This document shows positions 15,259 through 23,558 of a DNA stretch of 64,000 nt, piece by piece (position 1 is the first letter of the stretch; every line of letters begins with the position of its first letter). Made by a program: the position numbers and the translations under genes. This stretch comes from Rhodobacteraceae bacterium UBA6236. Its GTDB lineage: Bacteria; Pseudomonadota; Alphaproteobacteria; Rhodobacterales; Rhodobacteraceae. The stretch covers positions 9,209 through 73,208 of the forward strand of contig DJWG01000081.1 in assembly GCA_002440945.1 (NCBI GenBank). Reading direction: 5' to 3'. Below the pieces are notes generated by a model. It was not told the DNA's origin. It ran no database searches and worked only from the letters and a program-made list of their open reading frames with translations.

Positions 15259-15665
15259 GGCTGGGTCCTGTGCATGGGGTCGAAGCCCGCCACGAAGGCA
15301 GGAACGACGGACTCGTGTAGGGGAAGATGCTTCGGCTCGACCAAGCGGAATGCCCCGGCGCTTGCCGGGGCTTTCAGGGCCAACACCCTGCTGTCACGGA
15401 TTTCAAAAATGCACCGACGCCCCCCGAAAGGGCCCGGGCGTTGAAAACACGCCGCCTCAAACATCAATTTTGTCTCAATAACTTCTGGCCGTGCCCTAGT
15501 CGTGCAACTGTCGCCGATCAAGCCGTGCGTAACGCCGGGTCGCGAGGGATGACATAAAGTTGCCTTAATGTCTCACCGGCGATCATCGCAGATGCCATCC
15601 CCTGCGCGGGAACATCGCCGCCGACCCCGGGTTATGCCCCTGACCCCCCGGACAGGAGCTTCAGC
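15259..15665. other. Intergenic region between the DUF11 gene and katE remnant
   Basis: About 400 bp without a gene. It must hold the promoter of the minus-strand DUF11 operon and that of the plus-strand catalase remnant. A perfect 8-bp stem (GCCCCGGC and GCCGGGGC, 15352-15371) is followed by TTTC on the plus strand; no clear gene ends upstream to use it as a terminator. A moderately AT-rich stretch around 15455-15485 is the best candidate promoter area. The catalase ribosome site AGGAG lies at 15654-15658. Confidence 0.4.
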
Positions 15666-17321
15666 ATGGCCAGCAAACCCACCGACACCCCCCTCCCGTC
15701 CGCAAGGCAGCGGCGGGGAAACCCAGCAGCGCGGCGGCCCGGCGATCACCACGAACCACGGCACCCCGGTTTCCGATAACCAGAATTCCCTGAAGGCAGG
15801 CTCCCGCGGCCCCACCCTTCTGGAAGACTTCGTCCTGCGCGAAAAGATCTTCCACTTCGACCATGAACGGATCCCCGAACGCATCGTCCACGCCCGCGGC
15901 ACCGGCGCGCATGGCTATTTCGAATGCACCGACCCGATCCCGGATCTGACGCGCGCCTCGCTGTTCCAGAAGAAGGGCGCCCAGATCCCCGCCTTCGTGC
16001 GCTTCTCGACGGTGGCGGGGTCGAAGGGCTCCAAGGACACGCCCCGCGATGTGCGCGGCTTCGCCGTCAAGCTTTACACCGACGAAGGCAACTGGGATCT
16101 CGTGGGCAACAACATCCCGGTGTTCTTCATCCAGGACGCGATGAAATTCCCCGATCTGGTCCATGCCGTGAAACCCGAAGCCGACCGGGGCTTCCCGCAG
16201 GCCGCCACCGCGCATGACACCTTCTGGGACTTCATCGGCCTGATGCCCGAAAGCATGCACATGATCATGTGGGCCATGTCCGACCGCGCAATTCCGCGCA
16301 GCTTTCGGATGATGGAGGGCTTCGGCGTCCACACCTTCCGTCTGGTCAATGCCGAAGGCAAATCGACGATGGTCAAGTTCCACTGGAAGCCGAAGCTGGG
16401 CGTCCAGTCGACCCTCTGGGACGAGGCGGTGAAGATCTCCGGCGCCGATCCCGACTACCAGCGCCGCGACCTCTATGAAGCGATCATGGCGGGCGATTTC
16501 CCCGAATGGCATCTGGGCATCCAGACCTTCGACGAAGATTTTGCCGCCCGCCAGCCCTATGACGTGCTGGATGCGACCAAGATCATCCCCGAAGAAGACA
16601 TCCCCGTCCGTATCATCGGCCGCCTGGTGCTGGACCGCACCCCCGACAACTTCTTCGCCGAAACCGAACAGGTGGCCTTCCTGCCGCAGAATGTCGTGCC
16701 GGGCATCGATTTCTCGGCCGACCCGCTCTTGCAGGGCCGGATGAAGACCTCGCCCGCCGCGTCGCCGATGGCCTGGGGATTCCCCTCCCCGAGGCGACCC
16801 CGCCCGCGAAAGCACCCGTGGACATGCCGCCCTCGGACGCGCTCTCGATCCTGAAGCACAAGGCCCCCGTGACCGGCCGCTGCCTTGGCCTTCTGGTCAC
16901 CGACGGCGCCGACGCGGCGACCCTCGCCGCGCTGCGGGACGAAGCCGAAAAGGCCGGTGCTTCGGTGAAGATCATCGCCCCCAGGGTCGGCGGCGCGACC
17001 TTGTCGGACGGTCGGCACCTGCCCGCCGATGAAAAGCTCGACGGCGCGCCATCGGTGCTCTTCGACGCGGTGGCGCTGGTGCTGTCGGACGACGCCGCAC
17101 ACCAGCTGACCCGCGAAAAGGCGGCGCTGGATTTCGTCTCGGATGCCTTCGCGCATTGCAAGGCCATCGGCCACACGACCGCCGCCCAGCCGCTTCTGGA
17201 CAAGGCCGGCGTGCAGTCCGACGGCTTCATCCTCGACCTCTCGCAGGGCGCAAGGCCCCTGATCGACAAACTCTCCTCCCGGGACTGGAGCCGCGAGCCC
17301 AAGGTGAAGATTCCCCTCTGA
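15666..17321 (+). pseudogene. katE: katE-type large-subunit catalase, disrupted by frameshifts and a large deletion
   Basis: Clade II catalases are about 700-750 residues with a C-terminal DJ-1/flavodoxin-like domain. The natural start is ATG 15666 (AGGAG 7 nt upstream), giving [13 protein letters not shown], but the frame then changes twice: [10 protein letters not shown] is in the -1 frame, and [19 protein letters not shown] onward is in the -2 frame, as expected from two single-base losses. The haem domain is then intact through the distal His segment ([13 protein letters not shown]) to [13 protein letters not shown] near 16740. There the sequence jumps directly to the linker [18 protein letters not shown] and the C-terminal domain (to 17321). 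About 150 residues are missing, including the RLFSY-type segment with the proximal haem tyrosine. Catalase activity is not expected. Confidence 0.88.
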
Positions 17322-18989: not shown

Positions 18990-19835
18990 ATGCCGGTAAA
19001 AACGGTCATCATTCCTGCCGGGGGTCTTGGAACTCGCCTGCTTCCCGCCACCAAATGCACCCCGAAGGAAATGCTGCCCGTCTATGACCGGCCGGTGATC
19101 CAGTTTGCGCTTGATGAAGCCGTGGCGGCGGGCGCGACGCGCATTCTGCTGGTGGTCGGGCCGGGCAAGACCGCCCTGCGGGACTATCTTCAGCCCGACG
19201 AAGATCTGGCCCGCCATCTGCAAGACAAGGGCAAGCATGCGCTGCACGAGGCGCTTGAAAGCACCGGCGTCGGGCCAGAGGTCGAGGTCGAGATCGTGGT
19301 GCAGGACAGCCCGCGCGGACTTGGCGATGCGGTCCTGTGCTGCGCGCCCCATCTGGAGCGCACGCCCTTCGGCGTCATCCTGCCCGATGACCTGATCTTC
19401 GGCGATCCTTGCCTCTTGCAGATGGCCCGGGCCTATACGGGCGGCCATATGGTTGCGGCGCAAACGGTCGCCCCGCAGCAGGTGTCGCAATACGGGATCT
19501 TTCGGATCACCGGCAGCGCCATCCGCGGCCCGATCCGGGCGAGCGGGATGGTGGAAAAGCCCTCTGTCGCCGAGGCGCCGTCGCGCATTGCCGCCGTCGG
19601 GCGTTATATCCTTGATCCGGTGGTGCTGACGCGGCTGTCGATGACCCTTCCCGGCGCCGGCGGCGAGGTTCAGTTGACCGATGCGATCGCCGAAGACGTG
19701 GACACCAAGGGCCTGACCGCCTTCCTGTTCGATGGCGAACGCTTCGATTGCGGTTGCCACGACGGGCTTTTGTCGGCCTCGATCGTCCGGGAACGTCAGC
19801 TGCGGCGTGGAAACGCCATGGCTGCGGTTGGATAA
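18990..19835 (+). CDS. galU: UTP-glucose-1-phosphate uridylyltransferase
   Basis: Makes UDP-glucose from UTP and glucose-1-phosphate for polysaccharide, lipid glycosylation and osmoregulated glucan synthesis. 281 residues, close to the bacterial GalU length. The nucleotide-binding signature AGGLGTRLLPATK lies at the N-terminus, followed by KEMLPVYDRPVIQF, the UTP-site segment GLGDAVLCCAP, and the C-terminal GERFDCGCHDG in place of the common DCGxKxG motif. The start at ATG 18990 follows ATAGGGGAC. A strong bidirectional terminator separates it from parB. A lone galU next to a replication module may supply UDP-glucose for surface polysaccharide encoded elsewhere on the replicon. Confidence 0.92.
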   Translation: MPVKTVIIPAGGLGTRLLPATKCTPKEMLPVYDRPVIQFALDEAVAAGATRILLVVGPGKTALRDYLQPDEDLARHLQDKGKHALHEALESTGVGPEVEVEIVVQDSPRGLGDAVLCCAPHLERTPFGVILPDDLIFGDPCLLQMARAYTGGHMVAAQTVAPQQVSQYGIFRITGSAIRGPIRASGMVEKPSVAEAPSRIAAVGRYILDPVVLTRLSMTLPGAGGEVQLTDAIAEDVDTKGLTAFLFDGERFDCGCHDGLLSASIVRERQLRRGNAMAAVG

Positions 19836-19865
19836 CGGGTTATCCTTTTGTTTTAACGAGTGAAA

Positions 19866-19895
19866 AATGCCGGGGCCAGCGATGGCCCCGGCATT
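19866..19895. terminator. Bidirectional terminator between galU and parB
   Basis: A perfect 12-bp stem (AATGCCGGGGCC and its complement, 6-nt loop) with A-rich sequence on the left and ATTATTTC on the right. It serves the convergent galU (plus) and parB (minus) units. Confidence 0.85.
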
Positions 19896-19920
19896 ATTTC
19901 TTCCCGGATCGGGCGCCGAC

Positions 19921-19936
19921 CTTCCCCGCGGGGAAG
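19921..19936. repeat. Probable parS site 1 (16-bp palindrome)
   Basis: CTTCCCCGCGGGGAAG, a perfect palindrome placed 8 bp beyond the parB stop. One of five sites matching CTTCCCNGCNGGGAAG, all within the par region. Confidence 0.75.
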
Positions 19937-19944
19937 CTCGCGCC

Positions 19945-21072
19945 CTACCCTTCCAACTGGTCCAGAAGCAGACGCACGGCCTGTTCCAGCCGCCGCCGAT
20001 CCAGCGTGGAAAAGTCGCGGTCGATCAGGATTTCCAGCTTGCCCGCCGCCGCCACGCATTTGGCCCGCCGCCCGGCGCGGTCGAACTGGAAGCTGGTCTT
20101 GGCGCGCGGCTGACGTGGCGCCGCCGGTGCGCGCGGGGCGGGCGCCCCCTGCCCTTCCGCCGCCTCTTCGCCATTAGCGAAGCGCCGCAGCACCGCCAGT
20201 TCATCCTGGACCGAGCGGCCATCCCAGCCTTGCAGGTCGGACCGGATCAGCCCCGTCACTTCCGGTTCCTGTTCCAGCCGCGCCGCCAGCGCCGTGCCAA
20301 GCGCGCGTGGGATCTCTGGCGCGTGGATCAGGTCTTTGCCCAAGACCTTCAGCACCCGGATGAAGGCGCGGATGTAGCTGCGCTTCTGGTAGCCCGCCGA
20401 TTTGAACAGCACCGCCACGGCCTTGTCGGGATCGTTTTCCTCGGTCTCGGGGTCAAGCGCGTAGTCAAGCGCAAGCTGCGCCATTTCCGCGAAAGAGATG
20501 TCCTTCCGCACGAGGTTCTCATCGACCATGCGGCGGTAAAGACCTTCGAGCCCCTCGCCCTGCGGCATCACCGCGGCGGGAATGGCGGCATAGCGATCCG
20601 CGTCGCCGGTTTCCTCAAGTAGCGCCCGGAAAGCCGACAGGCGGCGGTAGCCCTGGATCAGTTCGTATTGCCCGTCGGCGCGTTCCTCGACCCGGATCGG
20701 GTTCGACAGGCCGACCTCGGCAATCGAGGTCTTGAGTTCGGCCAGATCGGGGTCGTCGCCCTTGCGGCGGTCACGGACCAGCTTGAACATCTCGATCCGG
20801 TCAAGCGCAATCAGATCAACGACCAGGCCCAGCTTTTTCAGCCGGACATGGGCATGGGCCAGCGCGTCGTTTTCGGCGCGGATCCGGGCTTCGATTTCCA
20901 GCCGGTCACGGCTGGTGGAAACGGTTTCGGCGATGGCCGCCGCCATCGGGCCACGGCGCAGGGGGCGTTCCTCTTCCTTCCCTGCGGGGAAGGTCTGGGG
21001 CGCGATCGGCGCAGGACCGTCACTTTCCACGGGCATTTCGATATCGAACATGCGGCGCTTCTTGGTCATCAC
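19945..21072 (-). CDS. parB: ParB-family partition protein (RepB-like)
   Basis: A 375-residue centromere-binding protein of the plasmid segregation system. A ParB N-terminal (CTP-binding type) domain lies at about residues 100-190 (GLSNPIRVEERADGQYELIQ, GYRRLSAFRALLEETG). The helix-turn-helix region follows (about 195-260), and a proline-rich linker leads to a C-terminal dimerisation segment ending LDQLEG. It begins 7 bp after parA, so the two are one operon. One of the 16-bp palindromes lies inside the gene, where it encodes FPAGK near residue 28, in the variable N-terminal arm. This is the type accompanying DnaA-like replicases in Rhodobacterales, not the RepB of repABC plasmids. Confidence 0.88.
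   Translation of the reverse strand: MMTKKRRMFDIEMPVESDGPAPIAPQTFPAGKEEERPLRRGPMAAAIAETVSTSRDRLEIEARIRAENDALAHAHVRLKKLGLVVDLIALDRIEMFKLVRDRRKGDDPDLAELKTSIAEVGLSNPIRVEERADGQYELIQGYRRLSAFRALLEETGDADRYAAIPAAVMPQGEGLEGLYRRMVDENLVRKDISFAEMAQLALDYALDPETEENDPDKAVAVLFKSAGYQKRSYIRAFIRVLKVLGKDLIHAPEIPRALGTALAARLEQEPEVTGLIRSDLQGWDGRSVQDELAVLRRFANGEEAAEGQGAPAPRAPAAPRQPRAKTSFQFDRAGRRAKCVAAAGKLEILIDRDFSTLDRRRLEQAVRLLLDQLEG
20977..20992. repeat. Probable parS site 2, inside parB
   Basis: CTTCCCTGCGGGGAAG; the two 7-base arms are perfect and only the centre pair differs. On the coding strand it supplies the FPAGK peptide of ParB. Confidence 0.72.
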
Positions 21073-21079
21073 TCAGCCC

Positions 21080-22375
21080 TCATATCTTGTCCCAGGAGGC
21101 AACGACGCTCGCCTTGAACTCCTCATAGGCGCGATCAAAGCTTGCCCGGGCGCGCCGCCAGGTTTCGCGGGTCATCTCGCGGTAGTCGATTTCATAGACC
21201 GAAGACAGGAAGCGGCCGGACTGTTCGACCGCACGCGTCATCTCGATCGGGTGTTCGGTGACATGTGGACCGAAAACCTTGCGGAAGGCTTCATACATGG
21301 CGCGGTGCAACTCGTTGCCGGGTTCATAGCGCGTCATCAGGAAGCGGATGTCGGCAAAGGCCTTCGGCAGGGCGATCTTCCCGGCGGGGAAGGTGGTGTC
21401 GAAGCCGCGCGACAGATCCTCCAGCGCCTCGGCAAGCTGGCCGATGAAGCTGGTGGTCGAGTCGTATTCCCAGTAGCCGGGGCCGGAGGGGATATAAAGC
21501 ATGTCGGCCGCGAAGACCGCGTTCATCGACTGATACCCGATGGCGGGAGGGCAGTCGAAGATGATCAGGTCGTAGTCGTCATCCGCCAGCCCGTCGAGGT
21601 AGCGCGACACAGCGGCGAAGAAGGACCATTCGGGGTTCAGATGCCGGTACTGGGCCGAGGCGAATTCGACGAAGGCCGCGTTGGCGCACGACGGGATGAT
21701 GTCGATGGTCGACCAGTTGGTGCGCTTGATGAAGTCGCCGTGGCGCAACCCGTCCAGACCCATGTCGCGGATCGAGGACGGGATCCGCCGCTGGGGCAGG
21801 GCGGTCCCCGATTCGGCCCCGGTCGAGGCTGCGTTCATCCGGTCGGTTTCGCGGATCAGGTCGCGGGCCATGATGCCCCAGACGGTGTATTCTTCGGCCA
21901 CGTCATTCAGCCCCATCGAGTGGCTGAGGGTCGCCTGCGGGTCGAAGTCCACGACCAGCACCCGGTAGCCGTCCAGCGCCGCGGCATGGGCCAGATGCAG
22001 CGCGACGGTCGACTTGCCGGCCCCCCCCTTGAAGTTCGCGACCGCCACCCGAAAGGCGCGCCTGCCCGCCGGCCGGGTCGGCATCAGCGACTTGCGGTTG
22101 ACCTTCATGCGACGGCGCAGCTCGTTGATCTCTTCAAGCGAGAACCAGCGCTGGCGACCATCGGGTTCGACTTCCCCGCCGGGAAGGTCGGGTTCGGTCA
22201 TCAACCGGCCACGGAAGGTGGACTGGTTGATGCCCAGGATCAGCTCGGACACCTCCCATGACGAAAAACGGCGGAGCGTCTTGCTGTTTTCGGGGCTGAA
22301 GGTCTGCTGGCGGATCCAGCTTTGCATCTTCAGAGACTGCGCCTGGAGCTTCGCCAGGTCTTCATGGGTGTACAT
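21080..22375 (-). CDS. parA: ParA-family partition ATPase (RepA-like)
   Basis: 431 residues from ATG 22375 (MYTHEDLAKLQ). An N-terminal MerR-like helix-turn-helix region (FSSWEVSELILGINQSTFRG, about 38-57) precedes the deviant Walker A motif FKGGAGKST (115-123), then VVDFDPQATLS (Walker A') and IIFDCPPAIG (Walker B). This is the long plasmid-type ParA (type Ia), which autoregulates through its N-terminal domain and moves ParB-parS complexes. An in-frame ATG at 22426 would add 17 residues; still earlier codons read through the origin region and are unlikely. Two palindromic parS-like sites lie inside the gene. Confidence 0.9.
   Translation of the reverse strand: MYTHEDLAKLQAQSLKMQSWIRQQTFSPENSKTLRRFSSWEVSELILGINQSTFRGRLMTEPDLPGGEVEPDGRQRWFSLEEINELRRRMKVNRKSLMPTRPAGRRAFRVAVANFKGGAGKSTVALHLAHAAALDGYRVLVVDFDPQATLSHSMGLNDVAEEYTVWGIMARDLIRETDRMNAASTGAESGTALPQRRIPSSIRDMGLDGLRHGDFIKRTNWSTIDIIPSCANAAFVEFASAQYRHLNPEWSFFAAVSRYLDGLADDDYDLIIFDCPPAIGYQSMNAVFAADMLYIPSGPGYWEYDSTTSFIGQLAEALEDLSRGFDTTFPAGKIALPKAFADIRFLMTRYEPGNELHRAMYEAFRKVFGPHVTEHPIEMTRAVEQSGRFLSSVYEIDYREMTRETWRRARASFDRAYEEFKASVVASWDKI
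21377..21392. repeat. Probable parS site 3, inside parA
   Basis: CTTCCCGGCGGGGAAG, in the coding sequence where it again encodes FPAGK (in TTFPAGKIALP of ParA). Confidence 0.72.
22171..22186. repeat. Probable parS site 4, inside parA
   Basis: CTTCCCCGCCGGGAAG, near the 5' end of parA, encoding part of DLPGGEVEPDG in the N-terminal domain. Confidence 0.72.
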
Positions 22376-22460
22376 CTGCCTGCCAAACGTTAATTCCTGC
22401 CTTTCCGCCAAATACGCTGAATTCATCGCAATTGCAAAACTGAAGTTGCTCTGGCACGAT

Positions 22461-22476
22461 CTTCCCTGCGGGGAAG
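22461..22476. repeat. Probable parS site 5, upstream of parA
   Basis: CTTCCCTGCGGGGAAG, identical to site 2, 86 bp upstream of the parA start. A site here is well placed for autorepression of the par operon as well as segregation. Confidence 0.75.
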
Positions 22477-22862
22477 GTCCGAAAGCCCACAAGGCTGGAG
22501 AAATCCTGGGGGAATCGTCGACCCGGGCGCCGAATCGGGGCTTGGCGGATCGCTTGGAAAACAGGCTCTGTTCCGGCCCGAAATGGGGGACATCCCTGGA
22601 TCGGCCGCGAAAGATTGGGGGACATTTCCCGCCCAATAGGGGACAACCAGCCCGTCCCCCTTCACCAGAGTCACCTGTTTTCTTTTGATGTCGGTTCGGG
22701 TCGATCCGGGGCCGGGCCGCTCGGCGCTTGACAGAATCGTGAAACCGGACGCAAATCGGGAAAGACAGGCGAAGAACGTTGTGATAGCGATTTCTTCGTA
22801 ATCTCCGGGCACCAAGATCCGGGACCATTGAGACGAAGCAGAGCCCCGGCAGCGGGGCGGGA
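22477..22862. other. Probable replication origin with iteron-like repeats
   Basis: A 386-bp non-coding stretch between divergent parA and the replicase. Three direct repeats with core GGGGACA occur at 22581-22593 (AAATGGGGGACAT), 22612-22624 (AGATTGGGGGACAT-like) and 22634-22647 (AATAGGGGACAA), about 30 and 23 bp apart. The inverse GTCCCCC follows at 22653. A comparatively AT-rich stretch lies at about 22735-22810, next to the replicase. The layout fits initiator-binding iterons beside an unwinding region. Confidence 0.6.
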
Positions 22863-22874
22863 CAGGAGACCCCG

Positions 22875-23558
22875 ATGCAGCTTGTCCGGGCCGTGGGACG
22901 CGAGGCGGCCGCGCGGAAATATGACATCCTTTCGGCGCTGATGGTTCATGCGCTGGCAGAGGACAAGCATGTGCAGCGGCTGGTCCTGCGGATGATGACG
23001 CTGGTCACGACGCGCTACAACTGGCAGCAGGATGAACTGTCGATCGGCCAGGAAGAGATCGCGCGGCTCTGGTCGGTGGATGAACGGACCGTGAAGCGCG
23101 AGATGGCGAAGCTGCGCGCCCTTGGCTGGTTCGTGGTCAAGCGGCAGGGCGCGCGGGGGCGGGTCAGCGTCTATGGCATCGACCTTGCCCGGGTGATGGA
23201 GGACACGCGCCCGGCCTGGCCGCGGATCGGCGCGGATTTCGTGGCGCGGGTCAGCCCCGCCTCGGCGGCCGAGGCTGTGGCGTCGAATGTGGTGCCTCTC
23301 AGGCCCGCGGTGCCGGCGCCCGAACCGGCAGGCAGCCTTTGGGGCGCGGTGCAGCAGCGGCTGCATCAGGAGGATCCGGCGACCTATGCCGCCTGGTTCC
23401 GGGCGCTGACCGAAGCCGGGGCAGGGGAGGGGTGCCTGACGCTTGCGGCGCCGACGCGGTTTCATGCCAGCTATGTCGAGACGCATCTGAAGCACCGGCT
23501 TGTGGCGGCGCTGCGCGAAACGGAACCGTCCTTCAGGGATGTCCGCGTGATTGCCTGA
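22875..23558 (+). CDS. DnaA-like plasmid replication initiator
   Basis: A 227-residue protein with AGGAG 7 nt upstream. The N-terminal 110 residues contain a winged-helix type region (IGQEEIARLWSVDERTVKRE, about 57-76). After a proline-rich linker, residues about 154-215 (LWGAVQQRLHQEDPATYAAW, AAPTRFHASYVETHLKHRL) match the N-terminal domain of chromosomal DnaA. This architecture is the 'DnaA-like' replicase described for extrachromosomal replicons of Rhodobacterales, paired with parAB as here. It lacks the AAA+ ATPase and DnaA box-binding domains and so is not chromosomal DnaA. It is divergent from parA across the presumed origin, and defines the replicon type of this molecule. Confidence 0.87.
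   Translation: MQLVRAVGREAAARKYDILSALMVHALAEDKHVQRLVLRMMTLVTTRYNWQQDELSIGQEEIARLWSVDERTVKREMAKLRALGWFVVKRQGARGRVSVYGIDLARVMEDTRPAWPRIGADFVARVSPASAAEAVASNVVPLRPAVPAPEPAGSLWGAVQQRLHQEDPATYAAWFRALTEAGAGEGCLTLAAPTRFHASYVETHLKHRLVAALRETEPSFRDVRVIA

Follow-up and report, generated by a model that had tools for sequence, protein, structure and literature searches.

Five copies of a 16-bp palindrome in and around the parAB genes of a DnaA-like Rhodobacteraceae replicon: a probable centromere partly written in partition-protein coding sequence

A 64,000-nucleotide stretch of the Rhodobacteraceae bacterium UBA6236 (contig DJWG01000081.1 of assembly GCA_002440945.1, positions 9,209 to 73,208; hereafter the window) carries the partition genes parA and parB, in and around which a 16-bp palindrome, CTTCCCNGCNGGGAAG, is repeated. 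This raises the question of what the palindrome does, and why some of its copies should be written inside genes. An exact search returned exactly five copies (sites 1–5 in Table 1), as the initial annotation had listed, and 100 dinucleotide shuffles of the window contained none. With up to 3 mismatches allowed, six further matches were found, scattered and similar in number to the shuffle level (mean 5.8 in all). The five-copy set spans 19921–22476 (~2.5 kb) and covers parB, parA and their flanks. Three copies are indeed coding, one in parB and two in parA, and two of these give the same pentapeptide, FPAGK, in both proteins, as previously noted; the other two lie outside genes, site 1 being 8 bp beyond the parB stop, between the convergent parB and a nucleotidyltransferase gene. 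The best explanation, to which we give a probability of about 0.88, is that together the 16-mers form the parS centromere of the ParABS system of a DnaA-like replicon, spread over the par operon and presumably read by ParB, through which the replicon would be passed to each daughter cell. The module has the corresponding components: a replicase with a DnaA N-terminal domain stands beside a divergent parAB pair on the minus strand, ParA combines a Walker ATPase with an N-terminal DNA-binding domain and ParB a ParB_N domain with a helix-turn-helix (HTH), as in type Ia-like ParABS. The palindromes, as putative cis-sites for ParB, correlate with ParB residues. The AlphaFold2 (AF2) fold of ParB matches chains of ParB, Noc, KorB and SopB, including Caulobacter ParB with parS. 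A 2011 study by Petersen et al. in Mol Biol Evol is said to have described such Rhodobacterales modules, with a DnaA-like replicase and divergent parAB, to have taken their conserved palindromes as centromeric anchors, and to have distinguished two compatibility groups. It is not known to report a rewriting of coding slots, peptides that follow the class or a correlation with ParB 228-229.

The palindrome was compared across 224 loci, made up of 80 loci from named genomes (the best 80 of 576), 13 plasmid loci, 130 loci (30 + 100) taken from a ParA search of 390 genomes, which gave matches with an E-value of at most 1e-60 in 225, and the window. These reduced to 207 distinct loci, of which 200 have a ParA at least 60% identical (seven below 60% were dropped) and yielded 199 ParB and 195 ParA rows. 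Classes were called de novo, from recurring 16-mers whose 6-bp arms are complementary. One class is present in two or more exact copies in 182 of the 200 loci, 13 loci gave a weak call and 5 had none near parAB; the class differs from replicon to replicon. Of the 182 loci, 171 belong to DnaA-like-I (class-I loci), and their arm is CTTCCC in 85, TGTCCC in 37, CTTACC in 24 and GTTCCC in 12, with TTTCCC (7), CTTATC (5) and CTTTTC (1) being rarer. A second clade, with a ParA about 62% identical, which we take to be DnaA-like-II, carries GTAACC (6 loci) or GTTACC (5). Three loci (L188, L196, L198) have hybrid palindromes in parA and its flanks, in which a CTTATC arm is combined with a CTTACC arm, and a ParB of the Y-S type (residues 228-229, see below); these are possible intermediates between classes. 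Five replicons of other types (L084, L085, L088, L092, L093; ParA 33–36% identical) have GTTTCG-N3/4-CGAAAC palindromes, some of them inside parA or parB in other frames.

Two adjacent ParB residues follow the class. Position 228 is the ParB column most informative on class (0.598, the next being 0.397, over 170 loci), and where two or more exact copies are present residues 228-229 are YQ in 78 of 84 CTTCCC loci, YT in all 24 CTTACC loci, YS in all five CTTATC loci and the one CTTTTC locus, and RQ in all 37 TGTCCC loci. The 12 GTTCCC loci have KQ (10) or RQ (2), and the seven TTTCCC loci PQ (6) or AQ (1). In the second clade GTAACC goes with KM (6/6; M229 in 8/8 once weak loci are included) and GTTACC with KT (3) or KV (2). 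K228 together with an outer G thus recurs in both clades, as does T229 together with TTACC arms, and in the tree of the second clade GTAACC/M and GTTACC/T or V are interleaved. The CTTTTC locus (L033, Y-S) is sister to a CTTCCC locus that is also Y-S (L010), as if S229 had preceded the change of the site. In the AF2 model both residues open the second HTH helix (228–247, mean predicted local distance difference test score, pLDDT, 86). When the PDB was searched by sequence, with ParB itself or with its profile, the matches covered the ParB_N part but did not extend to this predicted recognition helix, so 228-229 are not equated here with positions 173 or 201 of Caulobacter ParB. The five copies, initially proposed to be a distributed set of sites, would accordingly behave as one ParB recognition set.

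The association was followed on a FastTree phylogeny of 195 loci, built from ParA and ParB without the site slots, ParB 1–60 and ParB 222–234. The class changes at least 14 times on this tree, and on the branches concerned ParA 333 and 331 and ParB 107, 228 and 229 are enriched in changes over the other columns (592 in total). Mutual information over 83 loci with a replicase, which fell into two main classes, did not help, as lineage markers such as ParA I397 came out on top; the upstream DNA of 60 further loci was added and the measure replaced by co-change over 149 tips. In this ranking of 792 columns, replicase included, ParA G333, ParB Q229, ParB Y228 and ParA F330 take ranks 1–4, and ParB D107, K32 (the last residue of FPAGK), A167 and G227 ranks 5–8; the best replicase column is ninth. 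ParB 106–107 and 167 lie outside the HTH and change on the same branches as the class.

The ParB residues also predicted the class of sites found elsewhere. Three loci from Donghicola (L023, L027, L042) have the Y-Q ParB that goes with CTTCCC and no site near parAB, and the ParA loop that carries site 3 in the window reads VPGGT, VPGCN or VPGCH, the site pentapeptide having been lost. Their contigs hold seven CTTCCC palindromes, 4.1–10.5 kb downstream of parA, as expected from the Y-Q residues; five of the seven lie outside open reading frames of at least 200 amino acids. L035, of the same clade, has one CTTCCC palindrome, on a separate 5.7-kb contig.

In nearly all class-I relatives some of the sites are coding. 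The class palindrome is found in coding sequence in 169 of 170 class-I loci (one locus without parB, L037, being excluded from slot counts; the exception is L172), with the parA loop slot filled in 152 and the parB N-terminal slot in 90, whereas exact noncoding copies lie downstream of parB in 125 and upstream in 86. The loop slot is filled in all CTTACC (24), CTTATC (5), TTTCCC (7) and CTTTTC (1) loci, in 77 of 85 CTTCCC and 34 of 37 TGTCCC loci, and in just 5 of 12 GTTCCC loci. The slot also stands out in a codon alignment that was not selected for palindromes: of the 178 class-I loci ungapped at codon offset 329 of parA, 146 have perfect 6-bp arms there, in nine types, the next best of 419 offsets has such arms in 9, and re-dealing the right arms (500 shuffles) gave a mean of 45 and a maximum of 57. 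In the second clade no copy lies in parA, four lie in the body of parB, and the remainder are downstream.

The loop pentapeptide follows the class, being FPAGK or FPTGK with CTTCCC and TTTCCC, LPTGK or LPMGK with CTTACC, LSADK with CTTATC, FSAEK with CTTTTC, VPAGT with TGTCCC and FPAGN with GTTCCC where the slot is filled. The codons are those of the site far more often than codon use elsewhere in the genes would give, although these expectations treat the loci as independent, which they are not: for FP.GK in 73 of 84 ParA and 69 of 72 ParB rows (5% expected in each), for VP.GT in 34 of 44 and 16 of 18 (0.3% each), for LP[TM]GK in 23 of 24 (0.04%), for LSADK in 4 of 5 (0.08%) and for FP.GN in 6 of 9 and 3 of 4 (5% each). 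Seven of the 11 FP.GK exceptions in ParA are the TTTCCC loci, since that arm needs AAA for Lys. The rare Leu codon TTA, used in 1% of cases elsewhere, stands at the site in 23 of 24. Where the site is absent, so is FPAGK: the DnaA-like-II ParA has no such peptide, and the loci with sites moved downstream read VPGCN, VPGCH or VPGGT. The LPxGE motif, where site 4 lies, behaves differently, as it is retained with or without a site (L65, P66 and G68 are invariant in 43 rows) and is palindromic in 56 of the 124 class-I loci that have it, all of the CTTCCC class (56 of 86 CTTCCC loci against 0 of 38 others). This restriction is expected if CTTCCC alone can be spelled there without altering L65 and P66. 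The earlier suggestion that the DNA site shapes the sequences of the two proteins is thus supported by codons, slots and class-following peptides; short stretches of protein seem to be dictated by an address in the DNA.

It could be argued that the peptide itself is under selection, as a motif shared by ParA and ParB (for mutual contact, for example), with the palindrome as a by-product of codons. The presence of FPAGK in both proteins of the window, and the fact that N-terminal coding copies in ParB are nearly always in the FPAGK frame, would fit. We nevertheless regard this as very unlikely, as synonymous codons are fixed well above codon use, the same palindromes are common in noncoding DNA, a copy is read in another frame as LPGGE, and the peptide changes with the class. 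Hairpins in the parAB transcript, acting in attenuation or processing, are more improbable still: the RNA could fold into a stem of 6 bp closed by a 4-nt loop, and three of the five copies lie within genes, but the class tracks recognition-helix residues of ParB, and copies are found upstream of parA or, in the Donghicola loci, kilobases away and mostly outside long reading frames.

The copy 5' of parA had also been proposed to serve autorepression, which finds no support in the comparison. An exact class copy lies upstream in 86 of the 170 class-I loci (31 of 84 in the CTTCCC class), a separate conserved block lies nearer parA, and ParA has the fold of those ParAs that carry a DNA-binding domain at their N-terminus. 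In an alignment of 46 upstream regions the block between the upstream copy and parA reads TTTTGC..GCAAAT..GCGTATTT. It suits a ParA operator, since type Ia ParAs repress their own operon via an N-terminal winged HTH, according to the available text of PMC8465637; in Rhizobium leguminosarum, parS is described as not mandatory for repABC repression (available text of PMC4492784). Between the block and the replicase lie iteron-like repeats, whose core, TGTCCCC on the parA strand, is constant across the class-I classes while the palindrome varies, with a mean of about 2 copies upstream of parA in each class having more than one locus. The half-site of the TGTCCC class equals this core, so that cross-talk is possible in that class. 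Operators for another protein, the replicase or ParA, controlling copy number or autorepression, are worth considering, given this identity, the copy 5' of parA and the RepA-bound palindromes that serve as repABC operators (PMC4492784, available text). They remain an unlikely explanation: the palindrome changes class under an unchanging iteron core, replicase columns rank below ParB 228-229, though one of them is not far behind, three of the sites lie within genes, and sites can be kilobases off. As to whether the palindrome class marks a compatibility group within DnaA-like-I, this was not supported, since none of 124 genomes, of any class, has two class-I ParA matches (at least 74%; up to four candidates were scored per genome), and no such pair turned up among the 390 genomes of the ParA search. 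With a constant iteron core, a varying palindrome and no double-ParA genomes, a change of class seems to leave replication control as it was.

At the genome scale, the 16 CTTCCC genomes (65.9 Mb) contain 96 CTTCCC-arm palindromes, 79 of them in par-locus stretches; the 17 off-locus ones (total minus locus counts) compare with 23 for a reversed control pattern. In eight CTTACC genomes 24 of 28 copies are on par contigs, and in four TGTCCC genomes (G360, G113, G227, G160) all copies (3, 4, 3 and 4) are on the par contig. Several observations weigh against a ParB-read centromere. Two other TGTCCC genomes, G196 and G299, have 17 and 12 TGTCCCCGCGGGGACA-type palindromes on a chromosome-size contig, partly at the same places and several with identical flanks in both, so that this class also occurs away from the par locus, and a few off-locus copies match fully. 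The initial annotation had named many copies away from par genes as evidence against a centromere; such copies are present in the two TGTCCC genomes, and in the 16 CTTCCC ones the off-locus number is at background. The residue code is loose, with six CTTCCC loci lacking Q229 (S in 3, T, A and N in 1 each) and two GTTCCC loci having R in place of K228, and a residue outside the helix, ParB D107, has a rank close to that of 228. Branch lengths do not enter the co-change p-values, the backbone branches of the FastTree phylogeny are weak, and independent-pair tests, with 1–3 supported pairs per trait, a number too small for significance, gave none that was significant and none in the opposite direction. 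A pair of TGTCCC palindromes on a second contig (C2) of G196 and G299 was also considered as a possible second par locus, and tblastn with the ParA and ParB of the window found no parAB there. The scattered chromosomal copies would suit a mobile or multiplying palindromic repeat that stands near parAB by chance, a possibility we hold to be close to negligible in view of the fixed slots in homologous genes, in the same frame and with class-matched ParB residues, and of the background-level off-locus number in the CTTCCC genomes.

Parallels exist for parts of the proposed centromere. According to the available text of the respective sources, a parS lies within a parB-type gene in the Thermus thermophilus megaplasmid (parBm, PMC4409726) and in R. 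leguminosarum (repB, PMC4492784), so that a centromere site inside a partition gene is not peculiar to the present system; these are single cases, and recurrent slots in both parA and parB or a class-wise change of peptide are not seen in that text. In Rhodobacteraceae RepABC replicons (PMC5613091, available text), compatibility groups are told apart by a single base that is exchanged reciprocally in the two arms, and partition genes and palindrome likewise co-evolve, but the sites are 14 bp long, are placed downstream of repC for groups 1 and 2 and are not described there as coding. In the switch between ParB and Noc (PMC7383237, available text), a few residues in the HTH region determine which bases are preferred in a 16-bp palindrome, with permissive changes coming first; that system differs in being chromosomal, in involving Caulobacter ParB positions 173, 179, 184 and 201, and in having a site that is not tied to par coding sequence. 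No account of class-following palindromes within parA and parB of DnaA-like replicons was found in the literature searched, which left out the 2011 study and most subscription papers. What is new is the class-wise co-rewriting of the site, of two proteins and of ParB specificity.

Table 1 Features of the parAB module in the window. ParA residues are numbered with the codon preceding Met as 1.
Feature	Position	Strand	Remarks
Site 1, downstream slot	19921..19936	.	CTTCCCCGCGGGGAAG; exact-match search
Site 2, parB N-terminal slot	20977..20992	.	encodes FPAGK, ParB residues 28–32
Site 3, parA loop slot (A2)	21377..21392	.	encodes FPAGK, ParA residues 330–334
Site 4, parA N-terminal slot (A1)	22171..22186	.	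other frame, LPGGE, residues 65–69
Site 5, upstream slot	22461..22476	.	86–101 nt 5' of the likely parA ATG (22375)
parB	19945..21072	-	375 amino acids from GTG at 21072 (next codon ATG); Pfam ParB_N
ParB predicted recognition helix, residues 228–247	20332..20391	-	Y228 and Q229 at 20386–20391
parA	21080..22375	-	ParA ATPase, N-terminal winged-HTH-like domain
Conserved block, site 5 to parA	22410..22440	-	possible ParA operator/promoter
Iteron-like repeats, three	22582–22595, 22614–22627, 22635–22648	+	core GGGGACA; span 22582..22648
Replicase, divergent to parAB	22875..23558	+	Pfam DnaA_N

A sigma-70 promoter scan of 19800–22950 returned no promoter, and terminator-like matches in the same interval are at shuffle level, with one strong hairpin at 19866–19895. 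Further away, in the list of open reading frames, a catalase-like frame at 15568–16854 seems to be continued in another frame at 16818–17321, possibly by a frameshift.

Positions, classes, codon choice and the correlations of both peptide and ParB residues with class can be read directly from the DNA, and it is from them that we infer ParB binding, centromere function and the order of changes. In the proposed mechanism, a ParB dimer would read each palindrome via its recognition helix, with residue 228 corresponding to the outer base and residue 229 to the inner bases of the arm, and the centromere would not be clustered but spread over ~2.5 kb of the par operon, including the copies in parA and parB. 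In tolerant regions, namely the disordered ParA loop and the disordered N-terminus of ParB (residues 24–28, by site 2, have a pLDDT below 50), the site would dictate the amino acids, and a fixed region such as LPxGE would hold a class only if synonymous codons can spell it. A shift of ParB specificity would then shift the copies, the codons in which they are written, and hence the peptides of both ParA and ParB. It is probable, though less so than the centromere itself, that DnaA-like-I replicons have a dual-coding centromere by rule, in which each shift of ParB specificity forces paired changes in ParA and ParB (pentapeptide positions 1 and 5 as F-K, L-K, V-T or F-N, and 2 and 4 as P-G, S-D or S-E) under a two-residue code, and that the centromere class is uncoupled from replication compatibility. 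The DnaA-like replicons offer a series, repeated many times in nature, of DNA sites matched to predicted ParB recognition helices, in which the change is also recorded in protein sequence. This makes it testable how a multi-copy site and its reader change together, which of them changes first, and to what extent a protein can be bent by a non-coding signal. The centromere class would be predictable from two ParB residues, which may also help to locate sites in other parts of a replicon, as they did for the three Donghicola loci.

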